From Rhodobacter sp. (GTDB taxonomy: Bacteria; Pseudomonadota; Alphaproteobacteria; Rhodobacterales; Rhodobacteraceae): a stretch of 64,000 bases of DNA. Position numbers and translations under genes: made by a program. Positions within the stretch are counted from its first letter, which is position 1. The number at the start of each line of letters is the position of its first letter. The notes below the pieces were generated by a model, which did not search any database, was not told the DNA's origin, and saw only the letters and a list, made by a program, of their open reading frames with translations. Positions 19,539 through 47,568 of the stretch are shown here, one piece after another. The stretch lies in NCBI GenBank assembly GCA_030066215.1, contig JASJCA010000001.1:1-64000 (forward strand), in the 5' to 3' direction.

Positions 19539-19707
19539 AGCCGCGCCATCGCCGACCCGCGGGGTGGCGAGCTGACCTCTCTTCGGCAGCGCTTTATGGC
19601 TGTCGAGTCCGTGGGGCATCACGCGATGCGCTGGTGTAGACCAATCGCCGCCCCTGCCGGGCGGGTCGGCGATGGCGCGGCGGCGCTGCGCGCCTTGATT
19701 CCGCGCC
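19539..19707 (+). repeat. Dispersed structured repeat, copy A
   Basis: AGCCGCGCCATCGCCGACCCGCGGGGTGGCGAGCTGACCTCTCTTCGGC...TCGCCGCCCCTGCCGGGCGGGTCGGCGATGGCGCGGCGGCGCTGCGCGCCTTGATTCCGCGCC. Confidence 0.93.
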
Positions 19708-19769
19708 GGAGGGCGGGTCTCCACGGCTGCTTCAGACCATCGCCCGCGTCTCGCGGAAAAACACCCCGC

Positions 19770-20513
19770 CTAAACCGGCTTCACCCCGGGCTGACCGATC
19801 CCTTCAAGCACGCGCAGGGGTTTGCGCACCGCCTCCGGTAGACCCTTGGGCCTAGCATAGACCTGCTTGCTAGCCTCGACCAGCAGCACCCCGCCGGCCC
19901 AGGCGGTGCTGAGCTTGCGGCCGGTCTTCTCCCAAAACGGCCCGGTCTTGACCCAAAAACGCCGGTCCGACGGCGGCTGGAACAGCGCCGCCACATGGCG
20001 CTCCGGCACAAAGGCGTGGCGCTTCAGCTGCGCCTCCAATTGCCCCAGCGAATAGGGCCGGCCGAACCCGAACGGTGTCTTGTCGCGGCGCGCCCACAGC
20101 CCGCCGCGGTTCGGCACGACGAACAGAACGCGACCATTGGCAGCCAGCACCCGTTGGCATTCCTCCAACAGCTTCGAGGGGTTCTCGCTGGTCTCGAGCC
20201 CATGCAGCAGCAAGAGCTTGTCCGCCTGCCCGGTCTGCAGCGGCCAGAGCGTCTCTTCGCACAAGACAGAGGTGTTCGGCGCCCCCGGCGGCCAGGGCAT
20301 CACGCCCTGCGGGCCGGGCATCAGCCCCACGACCCGGGTCGCCTTGTCGAGATAGGGCCGCAGGATCGGCGCAGCGAACCCAAAGCCCACCACCGTCTGC
20401 CCGGCCGCAGTCGGCCAAAGCCGCACCACCTGGTCCCGGATCGCCTTTTGCGCCGCGCGCCCCAGCCGGGTGCGGTAGTAGAAGTTGCGCAGGTCCAGAA
20501 CGTCCAGGTGCAT
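19770..20513 (-). CDS. SAM-dependent methyltransferase-like protein adjacent to gloB
   Basis: [29 protein letters not shown]...[41 protein letters not shown]. Confidence 0.8.
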
Positions 20514-20588
20514 TGCGGCGCGGGCCCAGATCGGCAAAGCTCTGGCCGACCATACCCAAGACGCCCACCCAAACCACGAGGAAACGCC

Positions 20589-21350
20589 ATGCCCCTAGAG
20601 ATCGTCACCGTGCCGTGCCTCAGCGACAACTACGCGTTTCTGGTCCACGATGCCGCCAGCGGCGCCACGGCACTGGTCGACGCGCCAGAGGCGGCGCCGA
20701 TCCAGGCGGAACTCGACCGCCGCGGCTGGCGGCTCAGCCAGATCCTGATCACCCACCACCACGGCGACCACATCGCCGGGATCGACGCGCTGCGCTCGGG
20801 CGCCACTGTGATCGGCAACGCCGCCGACGCCGCCCGGCTGCCGCCGCTCGATCACGCCGTCGGCGACGGCGACAGCTTCGACGTCGCCGGCCACGCCGTA
20901 CATGTCATGGACGTCTCGGGCCACACAATCGGCCATCTGGCCTTCCACATCCCCGACGCGGGCGCCGTCTTTACCGCCGACAGCCTGATGGCGCTCGGCT
21001 GCGGGCGGCTGTTCGAAGGCAGCGCCACGCAGATGTGGGCGAGCCTGTCGAAGCTGGCGGCGCTGCCAGACGACACACTGGTCTGCTCTGGCCACGAATA
21101 CACCGCCGCCAATGCCCGCTTCGCGCTGACCATCGAGCCAGGCAATCCCGATCTGCAGGCCCGCGCGAAAGCCACCGAGGCCGCCAACGCCGCGGGCCGG
21201 CCGACGGTCCCGTCGACGCTCGCCGACGAGAAGGCCACCAATCCGTTTCTGCGCGCCGCCTTGCCCGAAGTGAAAGCCGCCATAGATATGACAGGCGCGG
21301 CTGACGTGGACGTCTTTGCCGAGATCCGACGCCGCAAGGACACGTTCTGA
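20589..21350 (+). CDS. gloB: Hydroxyacylglutathione hydrolase (glyoxalase II)
   Basis: [17 protein letters not shown] metal-binding motif; [13 protein letters not shown]-terminal NPFLRA. Confidence 0.95.
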
Positions 21351-21539
21351 CCCCGGGCGCCGCCCCTCGCGCCCCAGCGTTGCCAAACTGCCCATTTTCC
21401 GGTCGCCGCCCGACAATGTGACCGGGATCGCAAAGAAAAACCTTGAAGCCCGGAAAAGAAAACCGAACTTTAAGGTTAAGAGGTCACGGTTGGTACGGGG
21501 CCCGCCGCCCCCTCCGACCCAAGGTAAGGAGCACGTCAC

Positions 21540-23861
21540 GTGCCGTCATTCTCCAATACACTCGAGCAAGCGATCCATTCCGCTTTGGCCCTGGCCAATG
21601 CGCGCCGTCACGAACTCGCCACGTTGGAACACCTGCTCTTGGCGCTGATCGACGAACCCGACGCGGCCAAGGTCATGCAGGCCTGCAGCGTCGATCTCGA
21701 TGCGCTGCGCAAGACGCTCGTGGAGTTCATCGATGACGATCTGAACACGCTGGTGACCGATGTCGATGGGTCCGAAGCCGTGCCGACGGCCGCCTTCCAG
21801 CGCGTCATCCAGCGCGCCGCAATCCATGTGCAAAGCTCGGGCCGCACCGAGGTCACCGGCGCCAACGTTCTGGTCGCGATCTTCGCCGAGCGTGAATCCA
21901 ACGCCGCCTATTTCCTGCAGGAACAGGACATGACCCGCTACGACGCGGTGAACTTCATCGCCCACGGCGTCGCCAAGGATCCCTCGTATGGCGAGACCCG
22001 ACCGGTGCAGGGTGCCAGCGACCTGGAGGAAGAAGCGCAGAGCGCCGAAGAGGACGGCAAGGGCGAGTCGGCGCTGGCGAAGTACTGCGTCGATCTCAAC
22101 GCCAAGTCACGTAAGGGCGATGTCGACCCGCTAATCGGCCGCGATCTGGAGGTCGAGCGTTGCGTTCAGGTGCTGTGCCGTCGGCGCAAGAACAACCCGC
22201 TTCTCGTCGGCGACCCCGGTGTCGGCAAGACCGCCATCGCGGAAGGCCTGGCGCATAAGATCGTCGGCGGCGAAACCCCCGACGTGCTGCAGGGCGCCAC
22301 GATCTACGCGCTCGACATGGGCGCGCTGTTGGCCGGCACCCGCTATCGCGGCGATTTCGAGGAGCGGCTGAAGGCCGTTGTGGCCGAGCTCGAGGATCAC
22401 CCAGACGCGATCCTCTTCATCGACGAGATTCACACCGTGATCGGCGCCGGCGCCACCTCGGGCGGCGCGATGGACGCCTCGAACCTGCTGAAGCCGGCGC
22501 TGCAGGGCGGCAAGCTGCGCTGCATGGGGTCGACCACCTACAAGGAATTCCGCCAGCATTTCGAGAAGGACCGCGCGCTTTCCCGCCGGTTCCAGAAGAT
22601 CGACGTGACGGAGCCCACCGTCGATGACACGGTTAAGATCCTCAAGGGCCTCAAGCCCTATTTCGAGGAGCATCACGAGATCAAGTACACCTCGGACGCG
22701 ATCAAGTCGGCGGTCGAGCTGTCGGCCCGCTACATCCACGACCGCAAGCTGCCCGACAAGGCCATCGACGTGATCGACGAGGCCGGCGCGGCCCAGCATC
22801 TGGTGGTGGAATCGAAACGCCGTAAGACCATCGGCGCGAAGGAAATCGAGGCGGTGGTAGCCAAGATTGCCCGCATCCCGCCAAAGAACGTCTCGAAAGA
22901 CGACGCCGAGGTTCTGAAGGACCTAGAGGCGACGCTTAAGCGCGTCGTCTTTGGCCAGGACCCGGCGATCGAAGCGCTGGCCTCGGCGATCAAACTCGCC
23001 CGCGCCGGTTTGCGCGAGCCGGAAAAGCCCATCGGCAACTATCTCTTCGCCGGCCCGACCGGCGTCGGCAAGACCGAGGTGGCCAAACAGCTCGCCGATT
23101 CGCTGGGGGTCGAGCTGCTGCGCTTTGACATGTCGGAGTACATGGAGAAACACGCCGTCAGCCGTCTGATCGGCGCGCCCCCGGGCTATGTCGGCTTCGA
23201 CCAGGGCGGCATGCTGACCGACGGCGTCGACCAGCATCCGCATTGCGTGCTGCTGCTGGACGAGATCGAGAAGGCGCATCCGGACGTCTACAACATCCTC
23301 TTGCAGGTGATGGACCACGGCAAACTGACCGACCACAACGGCCGGCAGGTGGATTTCCGCAACGTGATCCTGATCATGACCACCAATGCCGGCGCGCAGG
23401 AGCAAGCCAAGGAAGCCATCGGCTTCGGCCGCGACCGGCGCGAGGGCGAGGATATGGCGGCGATCGAAAAGATGTTCACGCCGGAATTCCGCAACCGCCT
23501 GGATGCGGTGATCAGCTTCTCGCCGCTGCCGATGGAGGTGATCCTGCAGGTCGTCGAGAAGTTCGTCCTGCAGCTCGAGGCGCAGTTGATGGATCGCAAT
23601 GTCACCATCGAGCTCACGCGGCCGGCTGCGGAATGGCTCGCCGACAAGGGCTATGACGACAAAATGGGCGCGCGCCCGCTGGGCCGGGTGATCCAGGAGA
23701 ACATCAAAAAGCCGCTCGCCGAAGAGCTGCTGTTCGGCAAATTGGCCAAGGGCGGCATCGTCAAGGTTGGTATCAAGGACGGCGCGCTCGATCTGCGGAT
23801 CGAAGAGGCTCAGGCCCCGCGTCTGCCTTCGAAGAAGCCGCCGCTCTTGACCGCCGACTGA
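21540..23861 (+). CDS. clpA: ATP-dependent Clp protease ATP-binding subunit ClpA
   Basis: 773 aa with two AAA+ modules ([30 protein letters not shown]); GTG start. Confidence 0.97.
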
Positions 23862-23869
23862 TCGCGGGT

Positions 23870-24934
23870 GTGCCGCGGTCTGTTGCCGAAAACGGATTGC
23901 AACCCGGCCTGATACAGCGTTTGCGCAGCGAGCGCTTTCGGGTCGGGTCACAAGTTGCGTTGGTTGTGGCCGTCCTGCCGGTTGCCATCATGCTGGTTCT
24001 GGGCGCGTCCATGGCCGCGGCGGACGCGCCAAAACTCTCGTTCCCCGTCGACTGTGCGCTTGGTGAGACCTGTTACATCCAAAACTACGTCGACCGAGAT
24101 CCCTCGCCCGGCTACGCCGATTTCGGCTGCGGCGCGCTGTCCTATGATGGCCACAAGGGCACCGACATCGCCCTGCGGAGTCGCGCAGCAATGGCCGCAG
24201 GAGTGGCGGTCTATGCCGCTGCGGCGGGCACCGTCCGCGGTACGCGAGACGGTATGGCCGACAAGGTCTACACCGCCGACGACGCCGAGGCGCTGGAGGG
24301 TCGGGACTGCGGCAATGGTCTGGTGATCGACCATGGGCAGGGCTGGCAGACCCAGTATTGCCACCTGAGGCGCGGCAGCCTCGCCGTGCAAAGCGGCGAC
24401 GCCGTCGCCGCAGGGGACCTGATCGGCCAGGTCGGCCTCTCCGGCCGCACCCAATTCCCGCATTTGCACATCTCGGTCCGCAAAGACGGTGAGCCCGTCG
24501 ATCCGTTCCAACCTGATGGCCGCACGGCTTGCAGCGACACGGGCGCGGCGCTCTGGGCTGACGACATCGCCTACAGCCCCGGCGGGATGATCGACGCCGG
24601 GTTTTCCCCCGCCTTGCCGGACTACGACGCCATCAAGGCGGGCACAGCAGCGTCGGCAGGCCTGCGGCGCGAAGCCGAGGCCCTGGTGATGTGGGTTTAT
24701 CTCTACGGCGGCAGAGAGGGCGACCGTATCGTTTTCGACGTCGATGGTCCCGACGGGCCGTTCCTGGATCAGACCACCGAGTTGACGAGAACCCAGGCCC
24801 AGTTGTTTCGTGCCGTGGGCCGCAAACGTAGGGCGCAGGATTGGACGGACGGCATCTACACCGGTACCGCCACGCTGATCCGCGGCACGGTCGAAATCGA
24901 CCGGATCTCCACCCAGGTCGTCGTGGCACGATAG
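23870..24934 (+). CDS. M23-family metallopeptidase, exported
   Basis: N-terminal hydrophobic segment; HKGTDIALRS...GLVIDHGQGWQTQYCHLRRGSLAVQSGDAVAAGDLIGQVGLSGRTQFPHLHISVR (LytM). Confidence 0.88.
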   Translation: MPRSVAENGLQPGLIQRLRSERFRVGSQVALVVAVLPVAIMLVLGASMAAADAPKLSFPVDCALGETCYIQNYVDRDPSPGYADFGCGALSYDGHKGTDIALRSRAAMAAGVAVYAAAAGTVRGTRDGMADKVYTADDAEALEGRDCGNGLVIDHGQGWQTQYCHLRRGSLAVQSGDAVAAGDLIGQVGLSGRTQFPHLHISVRKDGEPVDPFQPDGRTACSDTGAALWADDIAYSPGGMIDAGFSPALPDYDAIKAGTAASAGLRREAEALVMWVYLYGGREGDRIVFDVDGPDGPFLDQTTELTRTQAQLFRAVGRKRRAQDWTDGIYTGTATLIRGTVEIDRISTQVVVAR

Positions 24935-24982
24935 CGCACAAGACCCAGATTAGACGCCGCAGACCGTGTTGCCCTGGTCGGG

Positions 24983-27900
24983 CTATTTTTCGGTCAGCTT
25001 GAGTTCGATCCGCCGGTTCTGCGCCCGCGCCTCCGGCGACGGCGCACGGTTGATCGGCTGAAACTCACCGAACCCCGCCGCGGCCAACCGGTTCGGCGGG
25101 AAGCCCAGCTCAGCGATCATGAACTGCACCACCGACAGTGCCCGGCCCTGGCTCAGCTCCCAATTATCGGCATATTTGCCGCCGCTGACGATCGGCACGT
25201 CGTCGGTATGCCCGTCGACCCGCAGGACCCAGTCGATCTCTGGCGGGATCTCGCCGGCCACCTCGCCGAGGATCTCCACCACCCGCGCGATTTGCGCCCG
25301 GCCCTCGGGCGCCAGCGACACGTCCCCGATCGGAAACAGCACCTCTGAGGAGAACACGAACCGGTCGCCCTCGATCCGCACGCCCTCACGCCCGGCCAGA
25401 ACCTCGCGCAGCTGCCCGAAAAACTCCGAGCGGAACTGTTCCAGCTGTTTGGCCTTCTCCTCCAGCTCCAGCCGCAGCGCCTCTTCGGCATCCGCGCGCC
25501 GTTTTTCTTCCGCCGCGACCCGCGCCAGCGCGGTGTTCAGCTGCGAGCCGAGCGCGTTGATCTGCACCTGCCGGTCCGCCTCTTGTGCCACCGCGGTATC
25601 TAGAAGCGCCTGCAACGCGCCCAACTGCTGGCGCAGCGCCGCGACCTGCTGGTTCAGCACCTCGGTCTTGCGCAGCGCGTCGGCCGACTTCGCCTCTTCG
25701 TCGGACAGCGCCAGGTTCGCGACCTTGAGCAGCGCCTCGCGCTCCTCGGACCGTGTCAGCGCACGCTCGATTTCCAGCTCGGCCTGGGCCTTCGCCGCCA
25801 GCGCCGCGGCCAGCTGGTCCCGAAGCTCCTGCTCGCTACCCGCCGCCGAGGCCCGCAGCGCGTCGATCTGCGCCTGGGCGGCGACCAGCGCATCCTCAGC
25901 GGCGGTCTTGTCGGCCAAAGCCGCCATCAGCCGCTCGGTCAGGTCATCACCGGCGGCCCGCGCCGCGGCCAACAGCGTCAACGTCTCTTCCGCCTCGCGG
26001 CGCTTTTCCTCCAACGCCAGGGTCATCGCCGTCAGCTCGTCGTCGGCATCCTTCAGACGCGCGCGCAGCGCCTCTGCCGCCGCCGCATCCGCCAGCCGCC
26101 GCTCTTCCTCGGCCGTCAGTTGGGTTTCGACGCCGGCCAGCCGCTCGCGCAGCCGCTCCGCCGCCGCCTGCTCGGCCAGCCGCGCTGCCGCTTCGGCGTC
26201 CAGATCCTGCTGCAGCGCGGCCAGCCGTTGGCGCAACTCCTCGGCCGCCGCCCGCTCGGCCAGACGCGCGGCCTGTTCGTCGGTCAGCTCCTGCTCGGCG
26301 CCGGCGAGCCGCTGCCGCAGTTCCTCCAGCGCTGCCTGCTCGGCCAGACGCGCGGCATCGGTCTGGCTGACCTGATCGACCATACCTTCCAGGCTGCGGC
26401 GCATTTCCTCGGCCGCGGCCAGCTGGGCGAGCCGCTCGGCCTCGGTCTCGGACAGCGAGGTTTCGATATCGGCGAGCCGGGCTTGCAGCGAGGCCACCAC
26501 CGCGGCCTCGGCCAGCCGCGCCTCTTCCTCGGCGCTGAGCGAGGTTTCCAGCTCGGCCACCCGCAGCCGCAGCGCCTCTGCCGCCGCCGCCTCGGCAAGA
26601 CGCAGCTTTTCCTCTTCCGAGACCGCCGCCTGCGTCTCGGACAATTGCTTCTGCAGCGCGGCGATCACCGCCTGTTCGGCCAGCCGCGCGGCCTGTTCGT
26701 CGGACAATGCCGCGTCGATCTGGCCCAGCTCTGCACGCAGCGCCGCCGCCTCTTCCAAAGCTCGCGCCCGAACGTCCTCTTCACTCGACAAGCTCGCCTG
26801 CAGTTGCAACAGCCGCGCGGTTAGGTCGTCACGGTCCGCCACCGTCTGCGCCATCTCGATCTCGGCGGCCAGGCGTTCGGCCTCCAGATCGGACAGCGCG
26901 GCCTCGAGCCGCAGGATCGTCTCGCGCAGCGTCTCTGCCTCGGCCGCGCCCGCCGCGCTGCCGGCCTGGGCGGCTTCGACCTCTGCCACCGCCGCGGCAC
27001 GTGCGGCTTCGGTTTCGGCCAGCGAGGCCTCAAGCCGCAAGAGCCGCGCCTGCATCGATTCCTGCTCCAGCGTCGCCGCCAGCCGCGCCGCCTCCGCCGC
27101 GCCAAGCGACTCTTCGGTCGCCGCCAGCCGTGCGCGCAGATCGGCCAGCAGCGCCAGGTTGTCCCGCTTGACCGTCGCTTCCTCGGCCAGCGCCGCCTGC
27201 AGCGCCAGGATCTGGTCGCGCAAGGTGACGCCCTCGGCCCGCGCCGCGGTGACTGCCGCCGTCTCGTCGTCCAGCGCCGCCTGCAGCGCCGCCAGCCGGG
27301 TGTTCAGCGCCGCGTTGTCGGACTGCGCACCCTGCAGCTGCGCCAGCGCATCGGTCAGCGACGTCTCGCGTGCCGAGACCCGGTTGCGTAGATCGGCGAT
27401 CAGCGCCTGCAACGCGTCGCGTCGCGCCGCCGCCAGCCGCGCCGCCTCGGCGCCTTCATCGATCTCGTCGCGCGCCCGCGCCAGGGCAAGCTGCAGCGCC
27501 TCCTGTTCCGAGATCAGCACGGCATTGGCGCCGCGCAGCGCATCGAGATCCGCCGCCAGCGCCGTGCCCTCAGCCCGCGCCGCGTCGCGTTCGGCCAAAA
27601 GCGACGCCACCTGCGCCTCGAAGCTCGAAATCCGCGCTGCCTGGGCCGCCAACGCGTCGGCCTGATCGGCCGCCTCGGACTGCAGCGCGGCGATCAGCGC
27701 GGCCTGCGCCTCTTCGGTCTGGCGCGCCGTCTCCAGCGTCGCCGACAGCGCGCCGACCTGGCCTTCGAGCTCGAAGGCGCGCTGCTGTTCCAGCCCGAGC
27801 GCCTGGGCCAGGGCGTTCACCTCGGCGCTGAGCTCGTCGAGTTCGCTCTCCTGGCCCGAGATCGTCTCGCGCAAGACGAACTGCACCACCATGAAGATCG

Positions 27901-28003
27901 TCAGCACGAACATCAGCACCAGCAGCAGCCCGGTCATCGCATCGACGAAGCCGGGCCAGATGTTGCCCGACATCCGCTGCACCGATCTGCGGGTCAGCGC
28001 CAT
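24983..28003 (-). CDS. Very long periplasmic coiled-coil protein with N-terminal TM plug and C-terminal OmpA/MotB-like domain
   Basis: 1006 aa; MSGNIWPGFVDAMTGLLLVLMFVLTIFMVVQFVL TM, then a long Ala/Glu/Leu coiled coil, then OmpA-like VDGHTDDVPIVSGGKYADNWELSQGRALSVVQFM...GFGEFQPI...RAQNRRIELKL. Confidence 0.88.
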   Translation of the reverse strand: MALTRRSVQRMSGNIWPGFVDAMTGLLLVLMFVLTIFMVVQFVLRETISGQESELDELSAEVNALAQALGLEQQRAFELEGQVGALSATLETARQTEEAQAALIAALQSEAADQADALAAQAARISSFEAQVASLLAERDAARAEGTALAADLDALRGANAVLISEQEALQLALARARDEIDEGAEAARLAAARRDALQALIADLRNRVSARETSLTDALAQLQGAQSDNAALNTRLAALQAALDDETAAVTAARAEGVTLRDQILALQAALAEEATVKRDNLALLADLRARLAATEESLGAAEAARLAATLEQESMQARLLRLEASLAETEAARAAAVAEVEAAQAGSAAGAAEAETLRETILRLEAALSDLEAERLAAEIEMAQTVADRDDLTARLLQLQASLSSEEDVRARALEEAAALRAELGQIDAALSDEQAARLAEQAVIAALQKQLSETQAAVSEEEKLRLAEAAAAEALRLRVAELETSLSAEEEARLAEAAVVASLQARLADIETSLSETEAERLAQLAAAEEMRRSLEGMVDQVSQTDAARLAEQAALEELRQRLAGAEQELTDEQAARLAERAAAEELRQRLAALQQDLDAEAAARLAEQAAAERLRERLAGVETQLTAEEERRLADAAAAEALRARLKDADDELTAMTLALEEKRREAEETLTLLAAARAAGDDLTERLMAALADKTAAEDALVAAQAQIDALRASAAGSEQELRDQLAAALAAKAQAELEIERALTRSEEREALLKVANLALSDEEAKSADALRKTEVLNQQVAALRQQLGALQALLDTAVAQEADRQVQINALGSQLNTALARVAAEEKRRADAEEALRLELEEKAKQLEQFRSEFFGQLREVLAGREGVRIEGDRFVFSSEVLFPIGDVSLAPEGRAQIARVVEILGEVAGEIPPEIDWVLRVDGHTDDVPIVSGGKYADNWELSQGRALSVVQFMIAELGFPPNRLAAAGFGEFQPINRAPSPEARAQNRRIELKLTEK
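26036..26707 (-). repeat. Eight consecutive 28-residue (84-bp) repeats inside the coiled-coil protein
   Basis: Residues 433-656 divide exactly into eight 28-aa units, e.g. LSDEQAARLAEQAVIAALQKQLSETQAA / VSEEEKLRLAEAAAAEALRLRVAELETS / LTDEQAARLAERAAAEELRQRLAALQQD. Confidence 0.9.
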
Positions 28004-28006
28004 GGT

Positions 28007-29206: not shown

Positions 29207-29232
29207 TCGGGACGTGTCCTGACGCTAGTTGT

Positions 29233-29241
29233 TGTGGATAA
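29233..29241 (-). promoter_or_regulatory. Exact DnaA-box 9-mer (TTATCCACA on minus strand)
   Basis: TGTGGATAA on + strand, 27 bp upstream of the MotA/ExbB-like gene start. Confidence 0.55.
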
Positions 29242-34791: not shown

Positions 34792-34869
34792 GCGCCTCGC
34801 CGGTCGGGTTACGGTCCGGGCCCAGGTGCCAGCGCCGCGCGGCGAAGGCAATGCGACGCCAGGCAGCAG

Positions 34870-35063
34870 GTGGGGCGGCAAGCCGGCGTCTGAACGGGTG
34901 TGCTTTATGGTCGCCGAGTCCGCAGGAACTCAAGTGAGTCGCGCGGCTCGACCAATCGCCGCCCCACCGAGGCCTTGTGGCCGTCCGACAAAGGTCCACT
35001 GGACCCTGTTCAGGCTACGAACCGGCGATGGCGCAGCGGCGCGGCGCGCCTTGATGCCGCGCC
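34870..35063 (+). repeat. Dispersed structured repeat, copy B (degenerate, with an insertion)
   Basis: Shares GTGGGGCGGCAAGCCGGCG..TGCTTTATGGTCGCCGAGTCCG..GACCAATCGCCGCCCC..GGCGATGG plus tail hairpin GGCGC-GGC-GCGCC with copies A, C, D, E. Confidence 0.75.
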
Positions 35064-35110
35064 TGGGACAGTGTCCAGCTGCGAAACGCTCCCGCCTCCG
35101 GACCCGCTGG

Positions 35111-37151: not shown

Positions 37152-38225
37152 TCAATGGGGCCGGTCGGCGCGTGAGGCCAGGATCGCCGCCTCGGCGGTG
37201 CTGAGCATGCGCCGGGCGAAGGCACCGTAGAGGCTGGGGTCGCGTTCGATGCCGGGCAGCCGATCGGCGAGCTCGTCCTGCTGCACCGGGTCGAGCGTGC
37301 CGGGCGGCATCGAGGCAGGGTGGAAGGTCTCAGCCTCGAGCCCATTGGCGAAGACGATCTGGTGGCGGTCGAGCAGCAGGTGCACGTAGGTGACCTCGGG
37401 CAGCCGTCGGTCGACAAGGACGTTGCGGTCGTTGACCAAGTCCTTGGCCGCGACCAGCACCTCGGGCGAACCGAAGAGCGTGTCCGCCACCGGTCCTTTG
37501 ACCAGAACCCGGTGCTCGGGCGAGACCAGCAGGTCGGCGTCGGGCCGCCCTTCGCCCGCGGCACCGGCGCGGATCCGGATCGGCCGCAGCTCGGGCATCG
37601 CAAACAGCCGCGCGCCGCTCATCCGCCGTTGCCCGATCCAGCGGATCGGCTGCGGGCCATCGTCCTTGGTCAGCACCCGGTCGTCTTCCTGCAGCTCGCG
37701 GATCGGGCGCGGGCCATCCGGCGTGGCGATCATGGTGTCGGGCGTGAAGCAGATCACCGACGGTACCGGATCGCCGGATCTGTTGGGGTGCAGGGCGTTC
37801 TGCGCGACATGAGTGACCCACAGATCCCGGCCCGCGGGCGGAAGCTCGTCGAGGAACATCAAAAGCGGTACGGCCCGCCCGGGCACCTCGATCAGCGTCG
37901 CGGTGTAGCGCCGAATCCCGTCGGTGACCGCGAAACCGGACTCCAGCACCGGGTCGTCCGGCTCGGGCAGCTTGCTGACCGTGTCGATCTCCAGCGCCGC
38001 GCCCACCAGGCGGCGTACCGCCCTCGCAGCATGTCGGCGCAAGCTTGCCGTGCCTTCCGAGGGTCCCAGAATCAGAACGTCATTGGGTCCGTCGACGCGC
38101 ACCGCGCGCCCGTGCCACGACCACGAGGCGCCCTCCATCAGCGCGCCCACCGGCGCACCCGCCAACCCATCGAGTTCGGTCTGCGCCCACGAGATGACGA
38201 ACGTGCCGCGAAAGCCCGTTTTCAT
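37152..38225 (-). CDS. Hint (Hedgehog/intein-type) domain protein
   Basis: [44 protein letters not shown]...[11 protein letters not shown]...[26 protein letters not shown]. Confidence 0.87.
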
Positions 38226-38270
38226 GCCTGTATGCCTGCCGTTTTCTTTTTTGTTGGCAGCACATTAGCA

Positions 38271-38279
38271 TGTGGATAA
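38271..38279 (-). promoter_or_regulatory. Exact DnaA-box 9-mer (TTATCCACA on minus strand)
   Basis: TGTGGATAA on + strand, upstream of the Hint-domain gene. Confidence 0.55.
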
Positions 38280-38313
38280 GTCGCTGTTAAGTGCCCGTGG
38301 ACAATTCTCGCGT

Positions 38314-39222
38314 TTAGAAGCGAATGTTGAGGCGGACGGAACCCACCAGCTGGCCCTCGGGCTGGCCGACGAATTCCTCGCCGAGCCAGGTGAGCCCGTA
38401 AAACGCCGAGGCTTTCTCGCCCTGCCAATGCACCCCGGCGCGCAGCCGGGTACGGGTGTCGGTCAGCGCAATGCCGTCATAGGCCGGCAGATAGACGCTG
38501 TGTTCGACATGGGCGATGTCGGCGCCGAAAACGGCTGCGAAGCCGGTGTGCGCGCCGCGGTTCACACGGTAGCGGTGGCCGGTGGCGACGTCGCGCAGCA
38601 TCAGTTCGTCCTGGCCGAGCCGCCCGATCATCACGTCGCCACCCAGGCGCACCAGGGTCTCGGCCCCGCCCTGCGCCTCGACAAACGGCCGCAGGACGAC
38701 CGAGGGCGACAGCCGGTAGGGCCGGGCGAGCTCGATCAGTGCGGTGGGGTGAAAACCGTCGAGGATCTGGTTGCCCAGCACGCCGGGACGCGAAGCGCCG
38801 AGGATCCTGTGGAGCTCGGTTTGCAGGTCGCCGAGCCCGGTCTGCGGCCCGGTCACCACCAGATCGGCGCCCAGGCTGACCTCGACCGCCTTGCGCCGGA
38901 AATGCGTGTGCGCGCCGAGCGACAGCGCACCGACATAGCGTCGGTCGCCAGGCGCGGCGGTGACGATGTTTTCCGGCGCGATGGTTTCGCTGCGAAAGCG
39001 GAATTCGATGACGTCGCCCGGGCGATCGGGCAGCCGGCCGTCCCAGCCGCGGCCGATCACCTTGCTGACGACGTAGGACCCGGTGCGCCAGCGGTCGCGG
39101 TTGTCGCCCAGGAAATCGTTGTTGAAGAGCCGGCCCCAGCCGAGCGACTCGCGCTTGGCGGCAGCGGCGTCGGGCGGGCACAGAAGCAGAGCTGTCAGAC
39201 AGGCAAGAACGGCGCGAAACAT
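38314..39222 (-). CDS. LpxR-like lipid A deacylase family (DUF2219) protein, copy 1
   Basis: Signal peptide; RLFNNDFLGDNRDRWRTGSYV...ENIVTAAPGDRRYVGALSLGAHTHFR...TGPQTG...TRTRLRAGVHWQGEKASAFYGLTWLGEEF. Confidence 0.85.
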   Translation of the reverse strand: MFRAVLACLTALLLCPPDAAAAKRESLGWGRLFNNDFLGDNRDRWRTGSYVVSKVIGRGWDGRLPDRPGDVIEFRFRSETIAPENIVTAAPGDRRYVGALSLGAHTHFRRKAVEVSLGADLVVTGPQTGLGDLQTELHRILGASRPGVLGNQILDGFHPTALIELARPYRLSPSVVLRPFVEAQGGAETLVRLGGDVMIGRLGQDELMLRDVATGHRYRVNRGAHTGFAAVFGADIAHVEHSVYLPAYDGIALTDTRTRLRAGVHWQGEKASAFYGLTWLGEEFVGQPEGQLVGSVRLNIRF

Positions 39223-39364
39223 CGGTCCCCCGACTCCCAAACGCCCCCCAGCCCCGCCGTTATAGGCGCGCCGCCCGGCCCGACCTAGCCCAATCTCCCC
39301 GGCACCGCCGGGCGTGGCGCATCGGCCACATGTCGGGGGCGGGGACATTGGCCCTCTCGCGAAA

Positions 39365-39533
39365 AGCCGGGCCCATCGCCGACCCGCGGGGTGGCGAGCC
39401 GACGATTGTTCGGAAGCACTTTATGGTCGTCGAGTCCGTAGAACCTCACGCGGTGCGCCAGTTTCGACCAATCGCCACCCCACCCGGGCGGGGCGGCGAT
39501 GGGCACGGCGGCCTACGGCCTTGCCTCCGTGCC
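39365..39533 (+). repeat. Dispersed structured repeat, copy C
   Basis: AGCCGGGCCCATCGCCGACCCGCGGGGTGGCGAGCCGAC...TCGCCACCCCACCCGGGCGGGGCGGCGATGGGCACGGCGGCCTACGGCCTTGCCTCCGTGCC. Confidence 0.92.
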
Positions 39534-39572
39534 TGGGGCAACGGTCAAGCCTCCACTCTAACTGCCGAAACC

Positions 39573-40490
39573 TCAAAAATGCAGATCGATCTGGATCGAG
39601 CCCACCGTCTGTGGCTCGCGTTGGGCGGTGAATTCCTCGCTGAGCCAGGTCATGCCGTAGAACACCGAGGCTTTCTCGCCCCGCCAATGCAGCCCGGCGC
39701 GGATCCGGGTGCGGGTGTCGGACAGCACCACCGTGCGGGTTTCGGGCAACAGCGCGCTGTCGGCCACATAGGCGATGTCGGCCCCGACCGTCGCGGCCCA
39801 GCCCGTCGCCGCACCGCGGATGCCTGGATAGCGCAGCCCCGTGGTCACGTCGCGCAACAGCAGCGCATCCTGCGCCACGCGCCCGAAATGCAGATCGCCG
39901 CCGACGCGCGCCAGGGTCTCGACCCCGCCCTGCAGCTCGACGAAGGGCCGGACCGACACCTTGGGCGACAGCGCAAAGCTGCGGCCGGCCTCGACGGTCA
40001 GCGTCGGGTAGAGCCCGTTCGGCACCCGGCTGCGCAGCACCCGCGCGCTGGCGCCGGGGATGCCCAGGGCGTCGTGGATCGCGCCCTGCAGCGTCTCCAT
40101 GCCGGTCTGCGGCCCGGTCGCGACGAGGTCGAGCCCCAGGCTGAACTCGACACCGGCTTTGCGGAAATGCGTGTGCGCGCCAAGGGCCAGGGTTTCTGCA
40201 TAGGGCCGGTCCAGGCGGTTCACCCCGACGATGTTCTCGGGCGTTATCAGGCCGCCGCGCAGGCGAACCTCGACCAGCTCGCCCAAGCGCGCGGGCAGCG
40301 CGCCGGTCCAGGCCGGCCCGAAGGTGAAGCTGAAGACGCCGGACCCGGTGCGCCAGCGGTCGCGCTGCGGATCGTTGGAGAAGACGTCGTTGGTGATCAG
40401 ATAGCCGAAGCCGAAGGGTGGCCGGTCCTCGGCCGCAAATCCCGGTCCGGCCAAGGCGGCGCATACCCACGCAAACAACAGACGACGCAT
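39573..40490 (-). CDS. LpxR-like lipid A deacylase family (DUF2219) protein, copy 2
   Basis: FGYLITNDVFSNDPQRDRWRTGSGV...GAHTHFRKAGVEFSLGLDLVATGPQTG...TRTRIRAGLHWRGEKASVFYGMTWLSEEF; paralogous to 38314-39222. Confidence 0.85.
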   Translation of the reverse strand: MRRLLFAWVCAALAGPGFAAEDRPPFGFGYLITNDVFSNDPQRDRWRTGSGVFSFTFGPAWTGALPARLGELVEVRLRGGLITPENIVGVNRLDRPYAETLALGAHTHFRKAGVEFSLGLDLVATGPQTGMETLQGAIHDALGIPGASARVLRSRVPNGLYPTLTVEAGRSFALSPKVSVRPFVELQGGVETLARVGGDLHFGRVAQDALLLRDVTTGLRYPGIRGAATGWAATVGADIAYVADSALLPETRTVVLSDTRTRIRAGLHWRGEKASVFYGMTWLSEEFTAQREPQTVGSIQIDLHF

Positions 40491-40589
40491 CGAAAACCCC
40501 AGGTTGGCGGCAGCCCCGGGGACCGGGTTATAGGGCCAAGCCCCGTGCCGCCCTAGCGGTTTTTCCCGGTTGTCGCACGGCGTGCCCCG

Positions 40590-42851
40590 TCAGCCACATT
40601 TCGAATGGCCGCAATTGAGGCAGGTCATGCAGCCCTCGATCATCCGCATGTCGTAGCTGCCGCAGGCGGTGCAGCTCGGCCCGCGCGGCCCGCCGAGGTT
40701 GACCACCTCGGCCTGCGGGTCGGTCTTCAGCCCCATGCCCTCGCCGTCGATGAAACCGATGGCGATCAGGTGACGCTCGATCACGCCGCCGATCGCGGCC
40801 AGGATCGAGGGGATGTACTTGCCGTTCATCCAGGCCCCCCCGCGGGGGTCGAAGACGGCCTTGAGCTCTTCGACCACGAAGGACACGTCGCCGCCGCGCC
40901 GGAACACCGCCGAGATCATCCGGGTCAGCGCCACGGTCCAGGAAAAATGCTCCATGTTTTTGGAGTTGATGAAGATCTCGAACGGCCGACGATGCCCGCC
41001 CACCATGATGTCGTTGATGGTGATGTAGATCGCGTGCTCGCTGTCGGGCCATTTCAGCTTGTAGGTCTGGCCTTCCAGCGCCTGCGGCCGGTCCAGCGGT
41101 TCCGAGATATAGACAACGTCGGCCCCGGTGTCGGTCTGCGGCGCGGCCTCGCTCGTTTCGCTGATCGCCAGGACCGAGCCGGTAACGTCGTTCGGTCGAT
41201 AGGTAGTGCAGCCTTTGCAACCGGTGTCGTAGGCCGCCATATAGACGTCCTTGAAGGCGTCGAACGAGATGTCGCGCGGGCAGTTGATGGTCTTCGAGAT
41301 CGACGAATCGATCCATTCCTGCGCCGCCGCCTGCATCCGAACGTGTTCGAGCGGCTGCAGGGTCTGGGCGTCGACGAAATGGTCCGGCAGTTCGGTGTCG
41401 CCGAAACGCTCCCGCCAAAGCGCGACGGCATAATCGACGACTTCCTCCTCGGTCTTCGAGCCGTCCTTCTGCAGCACCTTGCGGGTGTAGCCGAAGGCAA
41501 AGACGGGCTCGATCCCGCTGGAGACATTACCGGCGTAGAGGCTGATCGTCCCGGTCGGCGCGATCGAGGTCAGCAGAGCGTTGCGGATGCCATGCGCCTC
41601 GATCGCCGCACGCACGTCGTCGTCCATCTGCGCCAGCGACCCGCTTTGCAGGAACGCCTGGCGGTCGTAGAGCGGGAAGGCGCCCTTTTCGGCGGCAAGA
41701 TGCGCCGAGGCCAGATAGGCGGCGCGGGCGATGCGGTGCAACCAGCGCGAGGTCTGACGCGCCGCCTCCTCCGAGCCATAGCGCAGGCCAACCATCAACA
41801 GCGCGTCGGCGAGCCCGGTGACTCCCAGCCCGATCCGCCGCTTGGCCTGCGCCTCCTGCGCCTGTTCCTCCAGCGGAAACCGCGAGGCGTCGACGACGTT
41901 GTCCATCATCCGCACCGCGGTGGCGACCAGACCGTCGAGCGCGGCGTCTGCGATCCCCGCCCCGTCCTCGAACGGCCGTTCCACCAGTCGTGCGAGGTTG
42001 ATCGAGCCCAACAGGCACGCGCCGTAGGGCGGCAGGGGCTGCTCGCCGCAAGGGTTGGTCGCGGCGATGGTCTCGCAATAGGCGAGATTGTTCAGCGCGT
42101 TGATCCGGTCGATGAAGATCACGCCGGGCTCGGCGTAATCGTAGGTCGCGCGCATGATCTTGTTCCACAAATCCCGCGCCTCGACGGTGTGGTAGACCTT
42201 GCCCTCGAAGATCAGGTCCCACGACCCGTCGGCCTTGACCGCCTCCATGAAGGCGTCGGTGACCAGGACCGAGACGTTGAAATTGCGCAGCCGCGCGGGG
42301 TCGGATTTGGCGGCGATGAAATCCTCGATATCGGGGTGGTCGCAGCGCATGCAGGCCATCATCGCGCCGCGGCGGCTGCCCGCCGACATGATCGTCCGGC
42401 ACATCGCGTCCCAGACGTCCATGAAGCTGAGCGGGCCGGAGGCGTCCGCCGCCACCCCCGAGACCGCCGCGCCCTTGGGCCGGATCGTCGAAAAGTCATA
42501 GCCGATACCGCCGCCCTGCTGCATGGTCAGCGCGGCCTCTTTCAACATGTCGAATATGCCGGCCATCGAATCCGGGATCGTGCCCATCACGAAGCAGTTG
42601 AACAGCGTCACCGACCTGCCCGTTCCGGCGCCCGCGGTGATCCGGCCCGCGGGCAGGAACCGGAAGTCCTCGAGCGCGGCGTAGAACTTGCCTTCCCAGT
42701 CCTCAGGCCGCGTCTCCACCGCCGCCAGCGCCTTGGCGACCCGGCGCCAGGTATCCTCGACGGTGAGGTCGAGCGCGGTGCCGTCGGCCGCCTTCAGCCG
42801 GTACTTCATGTCCCAGATCTGCTCGGCGATCGGTGCGGTGAAGCGGGTCAT
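40590..42851 (-). CDS. nrdJ: Adenosylcobalamin-dependent (class II) ribonucleoside-diphosphate reductase
   Basis: NCFVMGTIPDSM...CGEQPLPPYGACLLGSINLARLVE...APTGTISLYAGNVSSGIEPVFA; C-terminal zinc ribbon CTACGSYDMRMIEGCMTCLNCGHSKCG. Confidence 0.95.
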   Translation of the reverse strand: MTRFTAPIAEQIWDMKYRLKAADGTALDLTVEDTWRRVAKALAAVETRPEDWEGKFYAALEDFRFLPAGRITAGAGTGRSVTLFNCFVMGTIPDSMAGIFDMLKEAALTMQQGGGIGYDFSTIRPKGAAVSGVAADASGPLSFMDVWDAMCRTIMSAGSRRGAMMACMRCDHPDIEDFIAAKSDPARLRNFNVSVLVTDAFMEAVKADGSWDLIFEGKVYHTVEARDLWNKIMRATYDYAEPGVIFIDRINALNNLAYCETIAATNPCGEQPLPPYGACLLGSINLARLVERPFEDGAGIADAALDGLVATAVRMMDNVVDASRFPLEEQAQEAQAKRRIGLGVTGLADALLMVGLRYGSEEAARQTSRWLHRIARAAYLASAHLAAEKGAFPLYDRQAFLQSGSLAQMDDDVRAAIEAHGIRNALLTSIAPTGTISLYAGNVSSGIEPVFAFGYTRKVLQKDGSKTEEEVVDYAVALWRERFGDTELPDHFVDAQTLQPLEHVRMQAAAQEWIDSSISKTINCPRDISFDAFKDVYMAAYDTGCKGCTTYRPNDVTGSVLAISETSEAAPQTDTGADVVYISEPLDRPQALEGQTYKLKWPDSEHAIYITINDIMVGGHRRPFEIFINSKNMEHFSWTVALTRMISAVFRRGGDVSFVVEELKAVFDPRGGAWMNGKYIPSILAAIGGVIERHLIAIGFIDGEGMGLKTDPQAEVVNLGGPRGPSCTACGSYDMRMIEGCMTCLNCGHSKCG

Positions 42852-42892
42852 GGGTGATTCCTTTGTCGCGCGGGGGCTCACAATAGCCGATC

Positions 42893-42901
42893 TGTGGGTA
42901 A
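42893..42901 (-). promoter_or_regulatory. DnaA-box-like 9-mer TTACCCACA (one mismatch)
   Basis: TGTGGGTAA on + strand, 42 bp upstream of nrdJ; 73 bp from the exact box at 42966. Confidence 0.45.
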
Positions 42902-42965
42902 GTCTACAACAGGTTGAAGCCCGCGCTGGATAGGCTACCATATCTGCGTGGCTTGGGGGCGACTC

Positions 42966-42974
42966 TGTGGATAA
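42966..42974 (-). promoter_or_regulatory. Exact DnaA-box 9-mer (TTATCCACA on minus strand)
   Basis: TGTGGATAA on + strand, upstream of nrdJ and overlapping the GTG start of the divergent DUF1489 gene. Confidence 0.55.
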
Positions 42975-43398
42975 GTTCATCAACCTGATCAAGCTGTCCG
43001 TCGGCTCTGAGTCGGTGGAGGGTTTGGCGCGCTGGCAGGCCTCGGCCACGGCCAAGGGGCCGGACGGCCTGCCACGGCACGTCACCCGGATGTGGCCCAA
43101 GCGTGAGGCGGACATCCTCAACGGCGGCAGCATCTATTGGGTGATCAAGGGCGTCACATTGTGCCGGCAGCGAATCCTGCGTCTCGACGAGGTCACCGGC
43201 GGCGACGGCATCCGCCGCTGCGCCATCGTGCTGGACCCCACGCTCGTGCGCGTCGCCGCCGCCCCGAAGCGCCCGTTCCAGGGCTGGCGTTACCTCGACC
43301 CCGCCGGCGCCCCGCCCGACCTGCGCGGCCGCGCGTCGGGCGAGCCCGACCTGCCGCCCAAGCTGAGCGCCGCCCTGGCCGAGATCGGCGTACTTTAG
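42967..43398 (+). CDS. DUF1489-like protein
   Basis: MDKFINLIKLSVGSESVEGLARWQ...HVTRMWPKREADILNGGSIYWVIKGVTLCRQRILRLDEV...AAPKRPFQGWRYLDP; GTG start. Confidence 0.85.
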   Translation: MDKFINLIKLSVGSESVEGLARWQASATAKGPDGLPRHVTRMWPKREADILNGGSIYWVIKGVTLCRQRILRLDEVTGGDGIRRCAIVLDPTLVRVAAAPKRPFQGWRYLDPAGAPPDLRGRASGEPDLPPKLSAALAEIGVL

Positions 43399-43450
43399 GC
43401 GCAGCGTAAGGCGTCAAATACCGACGCAATCTCAAACCGTGCTGGCGAAG

Positions 43451-43622
43451 AGCCGGGCCCATCGCCGACCCGCGGGGTGGCGAACCGACGCTTGTTCGGC
43501 CGCGCTTTATGGTGGTCGAGTCCGTAGGGCCTCGCGCGCTGCGCCGGTGTCGACAAATCGCCACCCCTCCGGGGCGGGTCGGCGATGGGCACGGCGGGGC
43601 TGCGCCCCTTGAGTCCGTGCCC
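43451..43622 (+). repeat. Dispersed structured repeat, copy D
   Basis: AGCCGGGCCCATCGCCGACCCGCGGGGTGGCGAACCGACGCTTGTTCGG...TCGCCACCCCTCCGGGGCGGGTCGGCGATGGGCACGGCGGGGCTGCGCCCCTTGAGTCCGTGCCC. Confidence 0.93.
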
Positions 43623-43641
43623 GGGTGTTGCGCAGCCTTCG

Positions 43642-44331
43642 CTACAGCCCCAGCCGTTCCAACAACGCCCCGAGCGCGGCTTTCGCGCCGGCATCCCATG
43701 CGGCGTGGCGGGCGCGGAACAGGGTGGCCTGGCTGCGGTGCACGATGCCGTCGGCCAGCACCTTCAGGTGGTTGGCCCGCAGTGTCTCGCCCGTCGTTGT
43801 GATGTCGGCGATCGCCTCGGCGGTAAGGTTCTTCACCGTGCCCTCGGTGGCGCCCTGGCTGTCGACCAGTAGGTAATCGGCCACCCCGTGGTGTTTCAGA
43901 AACTCGCGCACCAGCCGGTGGTACTTCGTCGCGATCCGCAGGCGCGCGCCATGCGCCGCCCGGAACGCCGCCGCGGCCGCGTCGAGATCGTCCAGCAGGT
44001 CCACGTCGACCCAGGCCTTCGGCACCGCAATCACCAGGTCCGCCTGGCCGAAGCCCAGCTGCGCCAGTTCCTCGACCCGATCCTCCCAATGCGCCAGCCG
44101 CTCGCGCACCATGTCCGACCCGGTGACGCCCAGGTGGATCCGCCCCGCCTCCAGCTCGCGCGGAATCTCGCCGGCCGACAGCAGCACCAGCTCGATCCCG
44201 TCGACGCCCGCGACCGCGCCGGCATATTCCCGGTCCGCGCCAGTAAGCGTCAGCCCGACGCCGCGCGCGCCGAACCAGTCGAAGGTCTTCTGCATCAGCC
44301 GCCCCTTGGACGGCACGCCGAGCTTGATCAT
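43642..44331 (-). CDS. hisG: ATP phosphoribosyltransferase, short form
   Basis: LGVPSKGRLMQKTFDWF...LGVTGSDMVRE...LVDSQGATEGTVKNLTAEAIADITTTGETLRANHLKVL. Confidence 0.93.
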   Translation of the reverse strand: MIKLGVPSKGRLMQKTFDWFGARGVGLTLTGADREYAGAVAGVDGIELVLLSAGEIPRELEAGRIHLGVTGSDMVRERLAHWEDRVEELAQLGFGQADLVIAVPKAWVDVDLLDDLDAAAAAFRAAHGARLRIATKYHRLVREFLKHHGVADYLLVDSQGATEGTVKNLTAEAIADITTTGETLRANHLKVLADGIVHRSQATLFRARHAAWDAGAKAALGALLERLGL

Positions 44332-45425
44332 GCCGCCAGCTCCAACGTCAGCGCGGGCCGGATCACGCCGCCCACCGCCGGCACCGCCGCCGGCCCGCCA
44401 AGCGCCCGGGTCAGCGCGTCATAACGCCCGCCGGTCGCGACCGGCGGCAGGTCGGGCCGGGTCTCGGCATAGAACCCGAAGACGAAGCCGTCGTAATATT
44501 CCATCTGGGTGCGGCCATAGCTGCCCTCGAAATCGAGCGCCGCGACGTCGACGCCGCGCGCCGCCAGCGCCTCGAGCCGGGCGGCCAGCCGGTCCACCGC
44601 GTCTGATACCGACGGCAGGTCCACCGCCACGTCGCGCAGCCGCGCCAGCGCTGCGGGGGCCTTGTCGCGCAGGCCGAGGATTTCGTCGAGCAGCTCCACC
44701 TCGCCGGCCGAGACCGGCGGCTCCGCGGCATCGGCCACCAGCGCGTCGACCCGGGCGGCGATCTCGTCCCGGCTGCGCCGCCCGATCATAGGCCCGGCCG
44801 CGGCCGCCACGTCCTCGCCCGCCGCGACGCGTGCCAGCAGCGCCGCGCGGGTCGGCGGCACCGGGCTGCGCCCGCCGAAGCGGTCCAGCAATGCCCGAAA
44901 CCGGCGCGGCCGCCAGATGTGCCGCGACAAGGCCGCCTTGCGCCGGTCGGTGGTCGACAGACCCTGAACGGCGGCCATCAGCACGCCGATATCGCCGGTC
45001 GCGGCGCGCAGGCCGAGCGGCGCCAGCACCTCGGCAAAAAGCGCGAACACCGCCGCGTCCGAGGCCGCCGGATCGGCCGCATCGAAGATCTCGAAGCCCA
45101 CCTGGTCGTATTCCGAGGGCCGCTCGACCCCCTGTTCCTGCACCCGGAACACCTTGCCGGCATAGACGTAGCGCGCCGCCGCCGCGCCGCCTGCGATGTG
45201 CAGCTGCACCACCGGCACGGTGAAATCGGGGCGCAGCATCAGCTCGCCCGCCAGCGGGTCGCGGGTGACGTAGGCGCGGGCGCGGATGTCCTCGCCGTAA
45301 AGGTCGAGAAGCGTCTCGGCCGGCTGCAGCACGGGCGGGTCCACCAGCGCGGCGCCCTCGGCCATGAACCGGACCACCAGCCGCGCCTGTTCGGCGTCGC
45401 GCGCGCGGCCGGCCGGGGTGCTCAT
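44328..45425 (-). CDS. hisZ: ATP phosphoribosyltransferase regulatory subunit
   Basis: HisRS-like; [48 protein letters not shown]...[12 protein letters not shown]...TGGRYDAL; adjacent to hisG and hisS. Confidence 0.92.
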
Positions 45426-46993
45426 CCGGCGGTCCGGTCGAGGAACGCCGCGACGAAATCGCCCAGATCCGCCCGCGGCACCTCTTGCTGGGCGGGCTGT
45501 TCCTTCCATTCCTCGTTCGAGGCGATCTCGGCCGCCAGCCGTTTGCCGAGGCCGAGATCCTTGACCAGAACCACGCCGCGGTTGTTTTCGTCGGAACCTT
45601 CGATGATCGCCAGCGGGCAGGCGCGCCGGTCGGCGTATTTGAGCTGGTTGCCGAAGTTCTTGGGGTTGCCCAGGTAGACCTCGGCACGGATGTCGCGGTC
45701 GCGCAGCTCGGCGGCCATCGCCTGATAATCGGCCATCCGGTCGCGGTCCATAACAGTGATCAGCACCGGGCCCTGCGCCTGCGCCTCGGTCCGTCCCTTG
45801 GCGTGCAGCGCGGCGAGCAGCCGGTCGACGCCGATCGAGATGCCGGTTGCCGGGACCTCCTGGCCGGTGAAGCGCTTGACCAGATCGTCATACCGTCCGC
45901 CGCCGGCAACGCTGCCGAACTGCCGCGGGCGGCCCTTTTCGTCGGTGATCTCGAAGGTCAGCTCGGCCTCGAAGACCGGGCCGGTGTAGTAGCCGAGACC
46001 GCGGACGACGGAAGGGTCAATGACGATGCGGTCGGGGCCGTAGCCTTGGGCGGCCAACAGATCCGCGATCTGATCGAGTTCGTCCACTCCCTCCACACCG
46101 ACCGCAGAGCCGCCGACGACACGTCGCAATTCCTCCAGAACATTGCGATTGATCGCCTCGCTCAGCTCCGGCGTCCGGTGCCGCGCATAGACTTCTCCAC
46201 GCTTGCCGTCCATGCGCTGAACTCCGTGTGCCGCCATGTCCGCGTGCCGTTTTCCAGATGTCAGAAACGCGATGATCGGGGCGGCCTGAGCCTCCGTCAG
46301 TCCGACGCCGTCGATATAGGCGCCCGAAGCGTCCAGACGCCCCTTGCCCAAAAGCTCGCGGACGCCCGTTTCTCCGACCTTGTCGTACTTGTCGATGGTG
46401 CGCAGGACGTCCGCTTTCTGGGTTTCGTCCGTGAGGTGCAGTTGCTCGAGAACACCGTTCAGGACCTTCCGGTTGTTGATCCGCACGATGTAGTCGCCGC
46501 GGGGGATGCCGACCGCCTCCAGGGTATCGGCGAGCATGGCGCAGATTTCGGCATCGGCGGCGACCGAGGCCGTGCCGACGGTGTCGGCGTCGCATTGGTA
46601 GAACTGGCGGAACCGGCCCGGGCCCGGCTTTTCGTTGCGCCAGACCGGGCCCATGGCGTAGCGGCGGTAGGGCGTCGGCAGGTCGTTTCGGTGCTGCGCG
46701 TAAACCCGGGCCAGGGGCGCGGTGAGGTCGTAGCGCAGCGCCATCCAGGCCTCGTCGTCTTCCTGCCAGGCGAAGACGCCGGCATGTGGCCGGTCCACGT
46801 CGGGCAGATATTTGCCAAGCGCTTCAAGGGTTTCCACGGCCGACGACTCCAGCGCATCGAAGCCATAGCGACGGTAGACCTCGGCGATCTTGGCCAGCAT
46901 CGCGTCACGCTCGGCCACTTCCGCGCCGAAATAGTCGCGGAAGCCTTTCGGCGTCTCCGCCTTGGGGCGCGGCGCTTTCTTGGGCTTGGCCAT
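45422..46993 (-). CDS. hisS: Histidyl-tRNA synthetase
   Basis: [35 protein letters not shown]...[26 protein letters not shown]...[17 protein letters not shown]. Confidence 0.95.
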
Positions 46994-47062
46994 GGGGTGA
47001 GTTCCGCCTGGATCCGGTTTGCGGCGCGGTCTAGCGGATGGGTGCAAGAGGGGCAAGGATGC

Positions 47063-47115
47063 GGCGAAATTGGCCTGTCTGCAGAACGTCTGTAAAACGT
47101 CGGTATCACGTCGGT
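47063..47115 (-). promoter_or_regulatory. Four-unit 11-bp-phased motif array, copy 2 (hisS/slyX divergent region)
   Basis: On minus strand: ACCGACGTGAT ACCGACGTTTT ACAGACGTTCT GCAGACAGGCC AATTTCGCC. Confidence 0.75.
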
Positions 47116-47130
47116 GCAAAAGGCAAAGCG

Positions 47131-47337
47131 ATGCAGGACCACAGCCAAAGCCTGGAAGAACAGATCGCGCATCTGCAGCGGCTGACCGATGACCTGTCGG
47201 ACGTGGTCGCCCGGCAGGAGGCCGAGATCGCCGCGCTGTCCCGCCGGGTCGAGATGCTGCTGCAACGCGAGGCCGAGCGCGAGGCCGACGCCTCCGGCGC
47301 CCTGCCCCTCGCCGACCGCCAGCCGCCGCATTACTAA
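47131..47337 (+). CDS. slyX: SlyX-like protein
   Basis: 68 aa; [40 protein letters not shown]...PPHY. Confidence 0.85.
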
Positions 47338-47400
47338 GGCGCGGACGGCCGCGGGCGGAGGCTTTCGTGGACTGGAAGGGGCGTAGACAACGTCGAGATG

Positions 47401-47568
47401 AGCCGCGCCATCGCCGACCCGCGGGGTGGCGAGCCGACGTTTGTTCGGCAGCTCTTTATGGCTGTCGAGTCCGTGGGGCCTCAAGCGGTGCGCGAGCATG
47501 AAGCAATCGCCACCCCTCCGGGGCGGGTCGGCGATGGCGCGGCGGGGCTACGCGCCTTGATCCCGCGC
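47401..47568 (+). repeat. Dispersed structured repeat, copy E
   Basis: AGCCGCGCCATCGCCGACCCGCGGGGTGGCGAGCCGACGTTTGTTCGG...TCGCCACCCCTCCGGGGCGGGTCGGCGATGGCGCGGCGGGGCTACGCGCCTTGATCCCGCGC. Confidence 0.93.

Follow-up and report, generated by a model that had tools for sequence, protein, structure and literature searches.

We report that repeated blocks in a 64-kb window of Rhodobacter sp. (contig JASJCA010000001.1, positions 1 to 64,000; the window is this whole stretch) are probably copies of a non-autonomous ERIC/REP-like mobile element of the Rhodobacteraceae that was previously unnamed, a reading to which we give a probability of about 0.6. That the element is mobile is well supported by the combination of its many copies, the covariation of its stem, the existence of empty orthologous sites and the lack of an Rfam match. 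A first-pass annotation of the window had described five such blocks (A to E), and these were located where it placed them, all on the + strand. It had suggested either a miniature inverted-repeat transposable element (MITE)-like element or a structured RNA, and had named dozens of intergenic copies, significant covariation and empty orthologous sites as the evidence that would support its proposal; all three were found, as described below. The annotation recognized no named family, in agreement with our finding that no Rfam family scored above its gathering threshold in the window, the best match for copy D being at chance level (E = 2.3).

Copy number and taxonomic range

The genome that contains the window is a fragmented Rhodobacteraceae assembly of 4.55 Mb in 211 contigs (hereafter, the own genome). 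A BLAST search gave 261 candidates, and all 40 of the copies that were scored were full. Model R1, which is biased towards this genome, gave matches in all 150 cases scored, and hence at least 150 copies; the true number is probably higher. A second genome of the same genus carries at least 128. Across the family, R1 matches were present in 39 of 121 sampled genomes, each of a different genus. Carriers include Seohaeicola, Alkalilacustris, Roseivivax, Roseovarius, Cognatishimia, Primorskyibacter, Pseudooceanicola, Salipiger, Pseudosulfitobacter, Pacificitalea, Sulfitobacter and possibly Leisingera. Model R2, a structure (covariance) model built from copies of other genera, gave three matches in 210 genomes sampled across the class, all three in the same family, and a limited query of phage records gave no match to the element.

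Same-strand tandem pairs of copies were also seen, the members being ~235-265 bp apart, which is close to the full length of the element including its outer arms. Four such pairs are found in genome G019 (C4:166275-166710, C1:943258-943675, C1:622455-622886 and C2:1036395-1036802) and another at L118:1501-1908.

Anatomy of the element

The element core is 172-178 bp in length and, together with degenerate outer arms, the element spans ~236-255 bp. Read along the + strand, AGCCGyGC leads into a long 5′ arm and a loop of 65-75 nt that bears CTTTAT and GCCAAGTCCG. The 3′ arm, AAATCGCC..GGCGATGG, comes next. Beyond it lie GGCACGGC or GGCGCGGC, then a small hairpin, and finally CTTGATTCCG with the last part of the tail. 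The two arms form an interrupted stem of ~29 bp that is very stable in the predicted fold. The middle strand GGCACGG has two alternative partners, CCGTGCC of the 5′ arm and the identical CCGTGCC of the 3′ tail. In the own genome these three strands covary, being CCGTGCC/GGCACGG/CCGTGCC in 23 copies and CCGCGC/GGCGCGG/CCGCGCC in 20, and between genera they also change jointly in a manner that preserves both pairings.

The internal loop of the 3′ arm is a recurrent site of short extra palindromes. In this genus it holds the terminator-like AAAAAGGTCCACTGGACCTTTTT (window 34957-35030; L223, L229 and L235), and in Pseudosulfitobacter a different type of palindrome, TCATGTCGTAGACATG (L139:6600-7060; L141:9280-9570).

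The core is flanked by TTGGCCTGGAGCGGACRTTG, which stops ~14 nt ahead of it, and on the other side by an inverse copy of that sequence, with identical spacing in both genomes of the genus. The outer arms are conserved in genome G001, in a sample partly picked by that motif, and are largely decayed in G000. These inverted arms, degenerate and at fixed spacing, are candidates for the element ends or for a preferred target. Coevolution of the arms, either as a helix or through insertion into private palindromes, was rejected since the arms do not covary within copies. Note that the outer arms recur in L209 and L217 around an interior that is unrelated but also structured (~268 bp in total), possibly a second repeat family that shares its ends.

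Covariation and strand polarity of the stem

In an alignment of 38 copies from ~35 genera, most of them retrieved with a structure model that favors paired copies, 94.9% of the stem cells pair, compared with 32-47% when the partners were slid. Both sides have changed in 20 of the 29 stem pairs, and 152 double-change cells were observed versus 48 ± 5 in shuffles, which ignore the relatedness among the sequences. RNAalifold alone recovered most of the stem (18 of 28 pairs compensated) as well as the tail pairing. Across dozens of related genera, it is the fold rather than the sequence that has mainly been retained.

The G-U and A-C cells, counted on the covarying stem only, have a strand polarity. 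Between genera, G-U pairs outnumber A-C mismatches by 35 to 5 (p = 7e-7 if the cells are independent). What reads as a G-U pair on one strand reads as an A-C mismatch on its complement. A duplex or cruciform should therefore favor neither, and the excess indicates that the fold is formed by one of the two strands. Within the own genome, variants present in several copies comprised 16 G-U and 3 A-C events, whereas singleton variants comprised 6 G-U and 11 A-C (shared versus singleton, p = 0.005). That the bias is restricted to shared variants suggests a role of the fold in spreading and not in a function for the host; note, however, that shared variants may be inherited and need not have arisen repeatedly. 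The simplest reading of these small counts would be that the folded + strand matters while copies spread and that single inserted copies drift. An earlier substitution count made on an over-predicted single-sequence fold, with loop pairs mixed in, had put G>A above C>T, the reverse of this trend, and is superseded by these counts.

The structural half of the first-pass proposal therefore survives in part. A conserved fold with strand polarity is supported together with the mobile element, whereas a host RNA function is not, given that the copies have no fixed orientation relative to genes and that the within-genome bias is confined to shared variants.

Empty orthologous sites

Copy D lies between DUF1489 and hisG, which are ~250 bp apart in its presence. 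In five relatives the same genes are separated by 27-97 bp and the element is absent; two of the five carry the family elsewhere. Likewise, uraH and lysR are separated by 288 bp in Pseudosulfitobacter, where an element lies between them. Without one, the distance is 24 bp (Sulfitobacter sp. OXR-159) or 78 bp (Leisingera caerulea). These empty orthologous gene pairs indicate that the element is an insertion.

Placement relative to genes

Genes were called from codon usage, with the window as training set, and not one of 112 full copies was found to overlap a gene so called, as the first-pass annotation had maintained for its five blocks. Both neighbors were available for 110 copies. The flanking genes are convergent around 59 of these (54%), tandem around 46 (29 copies antisense and 17 sense) and divergent around 5. 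Convergent pairs thus account for 59 of 110 pairs with the element versus 32 of 288 neighboring pairs without it (11%; Fisher p = 7e-18), and the median distance from a copy to the facing stop codon is ~65 bp. The annotation of plasmid records agrees, with copies flanked by convergent genes at uraH/lysR, dctP/ABC transporter and pdxA/MmgE. The common orientation reported for the blocks holds within the window but not genome-wide. Both orientations are present on 22 of the 29 contigs with at least two listed copies, and the shared orientation in the window is therefore a local coincidence.

This placement is what a host-useful 3′-end element would give, in which the RNA hairpin is selected as a stabilizer of the 3′ untranslated region, as a barrier to read-through or as a bidirectional insulator between convergent genes. 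Besides the convergent neighbors and the nearby stop codons, the very stable stem and a core better conserved than the arms would fit such a role, as would a minority subtype holding an A-run/GGTCCACTGGACC/T-run palindrome that resembles a bidirectional terminator. We nevertheless consider it unlikely. Neither the common core nor its flanks contain a T-run, and they thus lack the combination of GC-rich hairpin and direct T-run that makes an intrinsic terminator. In S. faviae the element is located behind an intrinsic terminator that is already complete, and the orthologous gene pairs manage without the element. Moreover, singleton variants have no G-U preference and copies occur in mixed orientation.

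Turnover by recombination

Two homologous Pseudosulfitobacter pseudonitzschiae plasmids that are 97.5% identical differ by a 33-kb inversion (L139/L140 versus L143/L144), both ends of which lie in opposite-facing copies of the element. Different subfamilies occupy the same site in these close plasmids: at two sites, one plasmid bears a type-1 copy where the other bears a type-2 copy on the opposite strand. Two S. faviae strains have retained the stems at the same site, where the loop differs. Recombination or conversion between copies is contributing to turnover, and may also be why the arms are less well conserved than the core.

All of these observations would be accommodated by a passive old repeat that is no longer mobile, is homogenized by homologous recombination or gene conversion and rearranges the genome. 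However, conversion alone makes no new positions, yet lineage-specific insertions exist, and stems of genus-specific sequence at hundreds of sites call for amplification at some point in the past. As the whole explanation it is thus rather improbable, although recombination and conversion may well act together with a mobile element.

Probable mobility of the element

If the blocks are copies of a mobile element, an enzyme supplied in trans would recognize the folded + strand, most likely in the form of single-stranded DNA and less likely as RNA, and would copy or move it. The two alternative helices may mark the element ends. Inserted copies would then survive mainly 3′ of stop codons between convergent genes, where they would do the least harm, and would subsequently drift.

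Several results weigh against mobility. No target-site duplication was recognized by eye in 30 flank pairs, the ends of the element being uncertain. The close strains represented by four Pseudosulfitobacter plasmids contained no fresh insertion defined at the base level, replacements and the inversion being seen instead. In the own genome the arms are less well conserved than the core, a pattern that simple copy-and-decay does not produce unless gene conversion or selection is added. Finally, no mobilizing enzyme was found, RAYT/Y1 and IS110 both failing as candidates, and the about 0.5 Mb that was read contained no recognizable autonomous partner bearing a gene in its interior. Y1/RAYT transposases (PF01797) are absent from 10 of the 11 genomes searched, and their absence from seven of the eight carriers among these rules them out as the mover. 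IS110 (DEDD transposase, PF01548) is represented by one gene in the own genome versus at least 150 copies of the element, is absent from carriers G011, G012 and G019 and is few or absent in most carriers. It is not linked to the copies, and the single case seen uses the element as a target.

Members of the IS110 family are known to insert into REP sequences. In the case observed here, an IS110-family element is inserted exactly in the conserved CTTGAT of an element tail (L145:29890-31270; NZ_CP085155.1). An apparent remnant of the same IS110 end is found at the same place in another copy on p1 (NZ_CP054608.1, about 31860).

It is also conceivable, but quite improbable, that the + strand transcript is itself the mobile intermediate, similar to a short interspersed nuclear element (SINE) or a guide RNA, with the two exclusive helices switching between a stable RNA and an integration-competent form and with an enzyme not yet recognized. 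Least probable of all is a cis-regulatory or trans-acting structured RNA with two conformations (riboswitch-like or a small RNA family), since compensatory conservation, mutually exclusive pairings and strand polarity would suit it, but the copies, at least 150 in mixed orientation, lie mostly at the 3′ ends of genes, have unrelated neighboring genes and are seldom upstream of both neighbors (divergent genes flank 5 of 110).

As a mobile element, the blocks would represent a previously unnamed structured repeat family that extends across a major bacterial family and reaches at least 150 copies in some species. The polarity of G-U versus A-C, limited to shared variants, provides a test from sequence alone of whether a fold is kept for the spread of an element or for its host. 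As recombination points (exemplified by the 33-kb plasmid inversion) the copies shape genome structure, and they merit annotation rather than being mistaken for regulatory RNA.

Comparison with known repeats

By analogy, the element appears to operate like the ERIC/REP-type repeats and the mobile/repeat motifs (PMC2267715, PMC11109978). With ERIC/YPAL of Enterobacterales and Vibrio it shares an imperfect palindrome of 100-200 bp, an intergenic location, tens to hundreds of copies and a stable single-strand fold (PMC2267715). ERIC belongs to another clade, and the resemblance is one of form only. Unlike ERIC/YPAL, the present element has two competing helices, a large conserved loop and a second hairpin, and its fold is kept between genera by wholesale compensatory change. 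REP/BIME with RAYT are likewise palindromic, extragenic and downstream of genes and are IS110-type targets (one case here), but the present element is about five times longer and RAYT/Y1 is missing in seven of eight carriers. The element resembles a MITE in part. It is short, non-coding and dispersed (172-178 bp, at least 150 copies, none in called genes), and its inverted outer arms at fixed spacing, which can enclose another interior, are degenerate candidates for terminal inverted repeats. No target duplication was recognized in the 30 flank pairs and no parent transposon in the stretches read, and decay is more rapid in the arms than in the core.

A long covarying stem and dozens of copies per genome also characterize MRSC-65-2 and the other recently described mobile/repeat motifs, which were judged to be selfish, possibly acting as DNA (PMC11109978). 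MRSC-65-2 has a single stem with a repeated UYCCGG motif and occurs in many phyla, whereas the present element has a multi-part fold and was seen in one family only; the two are set apart here by description. No description of the element was found in a library of open-access papers, a coverage that leaves out subscription papers, preprints and supplementary files.

Copies in the window

The full-length copies are 71-88% identical to copy A in ungapped comparison, and "near-identical", as the first-pass annotation had it, was too strong. The core CTTTATGGNNGTCGAGTCCGT has six matches in the window at no more than three mismatches, five of which are blocks A to E (chance expectation, 0.02). A further copy, F, had been missed; it carries the three complementary strands GGCCCAG / CTGGGCC / AGCCCAG. 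In copy B the 5′ arm is degenerate and ~45 bp, including a terminator-like palindrome, is inserted in the 3′ arm. The left arm of copy C sits at a position common to many copies.

Table 1 Element copies and outer arms in the window, with R2 scores and gene context
Feature	Position	Strand	Description	Flanking genes
Copy A	19538-19713	+	Full core; R2 E < 1e-23	Divergent: atpH-like 18509-19069 (-), gene ending in a HAGH_C domain 19995-21350 (+)
Copy B	about 34851-35069	+	Diverged; weak R2 match, E = 0.0015	Antisense to both neighboring genes
Copy C	39364-39539	+	Full core; R2 E < 1e-23	Antisense, between two tandem LpxR-like genes (-)
Copy D	43450-43627	+	Full core; R2 E < 1e-23	Convergent: DUF1489 (+), hisG (-)
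Copy E	47400-47575	+	Full core; R2 E < 1e-23	Convergent: slyX (+) and an unassigned gene (-)
Copy F	5414-5581	+	Old, diverged; R2 E = 1e-7	Convergent: 4410-5330 (+), 5644-6462 (-)
Left outer arm of copy C	39332-39350	+	Degenerate; GTCGGGGGCGGGGACATTG, consensus TGGCCTGGAGCGGACATTG; 11/19 matches, weak alone	
Left outer arm of copy E	47368-47386	+	Degenerate; TGGACTGGAAGGGGCGTAG; 13/19 matches at the same offset	

The two LpxR-like outer-membrane protein genes on either side of copy C (window 38314-40490) are a tandem duplication, ~52% identical. The window also contains a coding tandem repeat at 26054-26692, with 84-bp spacing and six listed copies that are 63-71% alike, which lies within a reading frame of 1006 aa (24983-28003, - strand).

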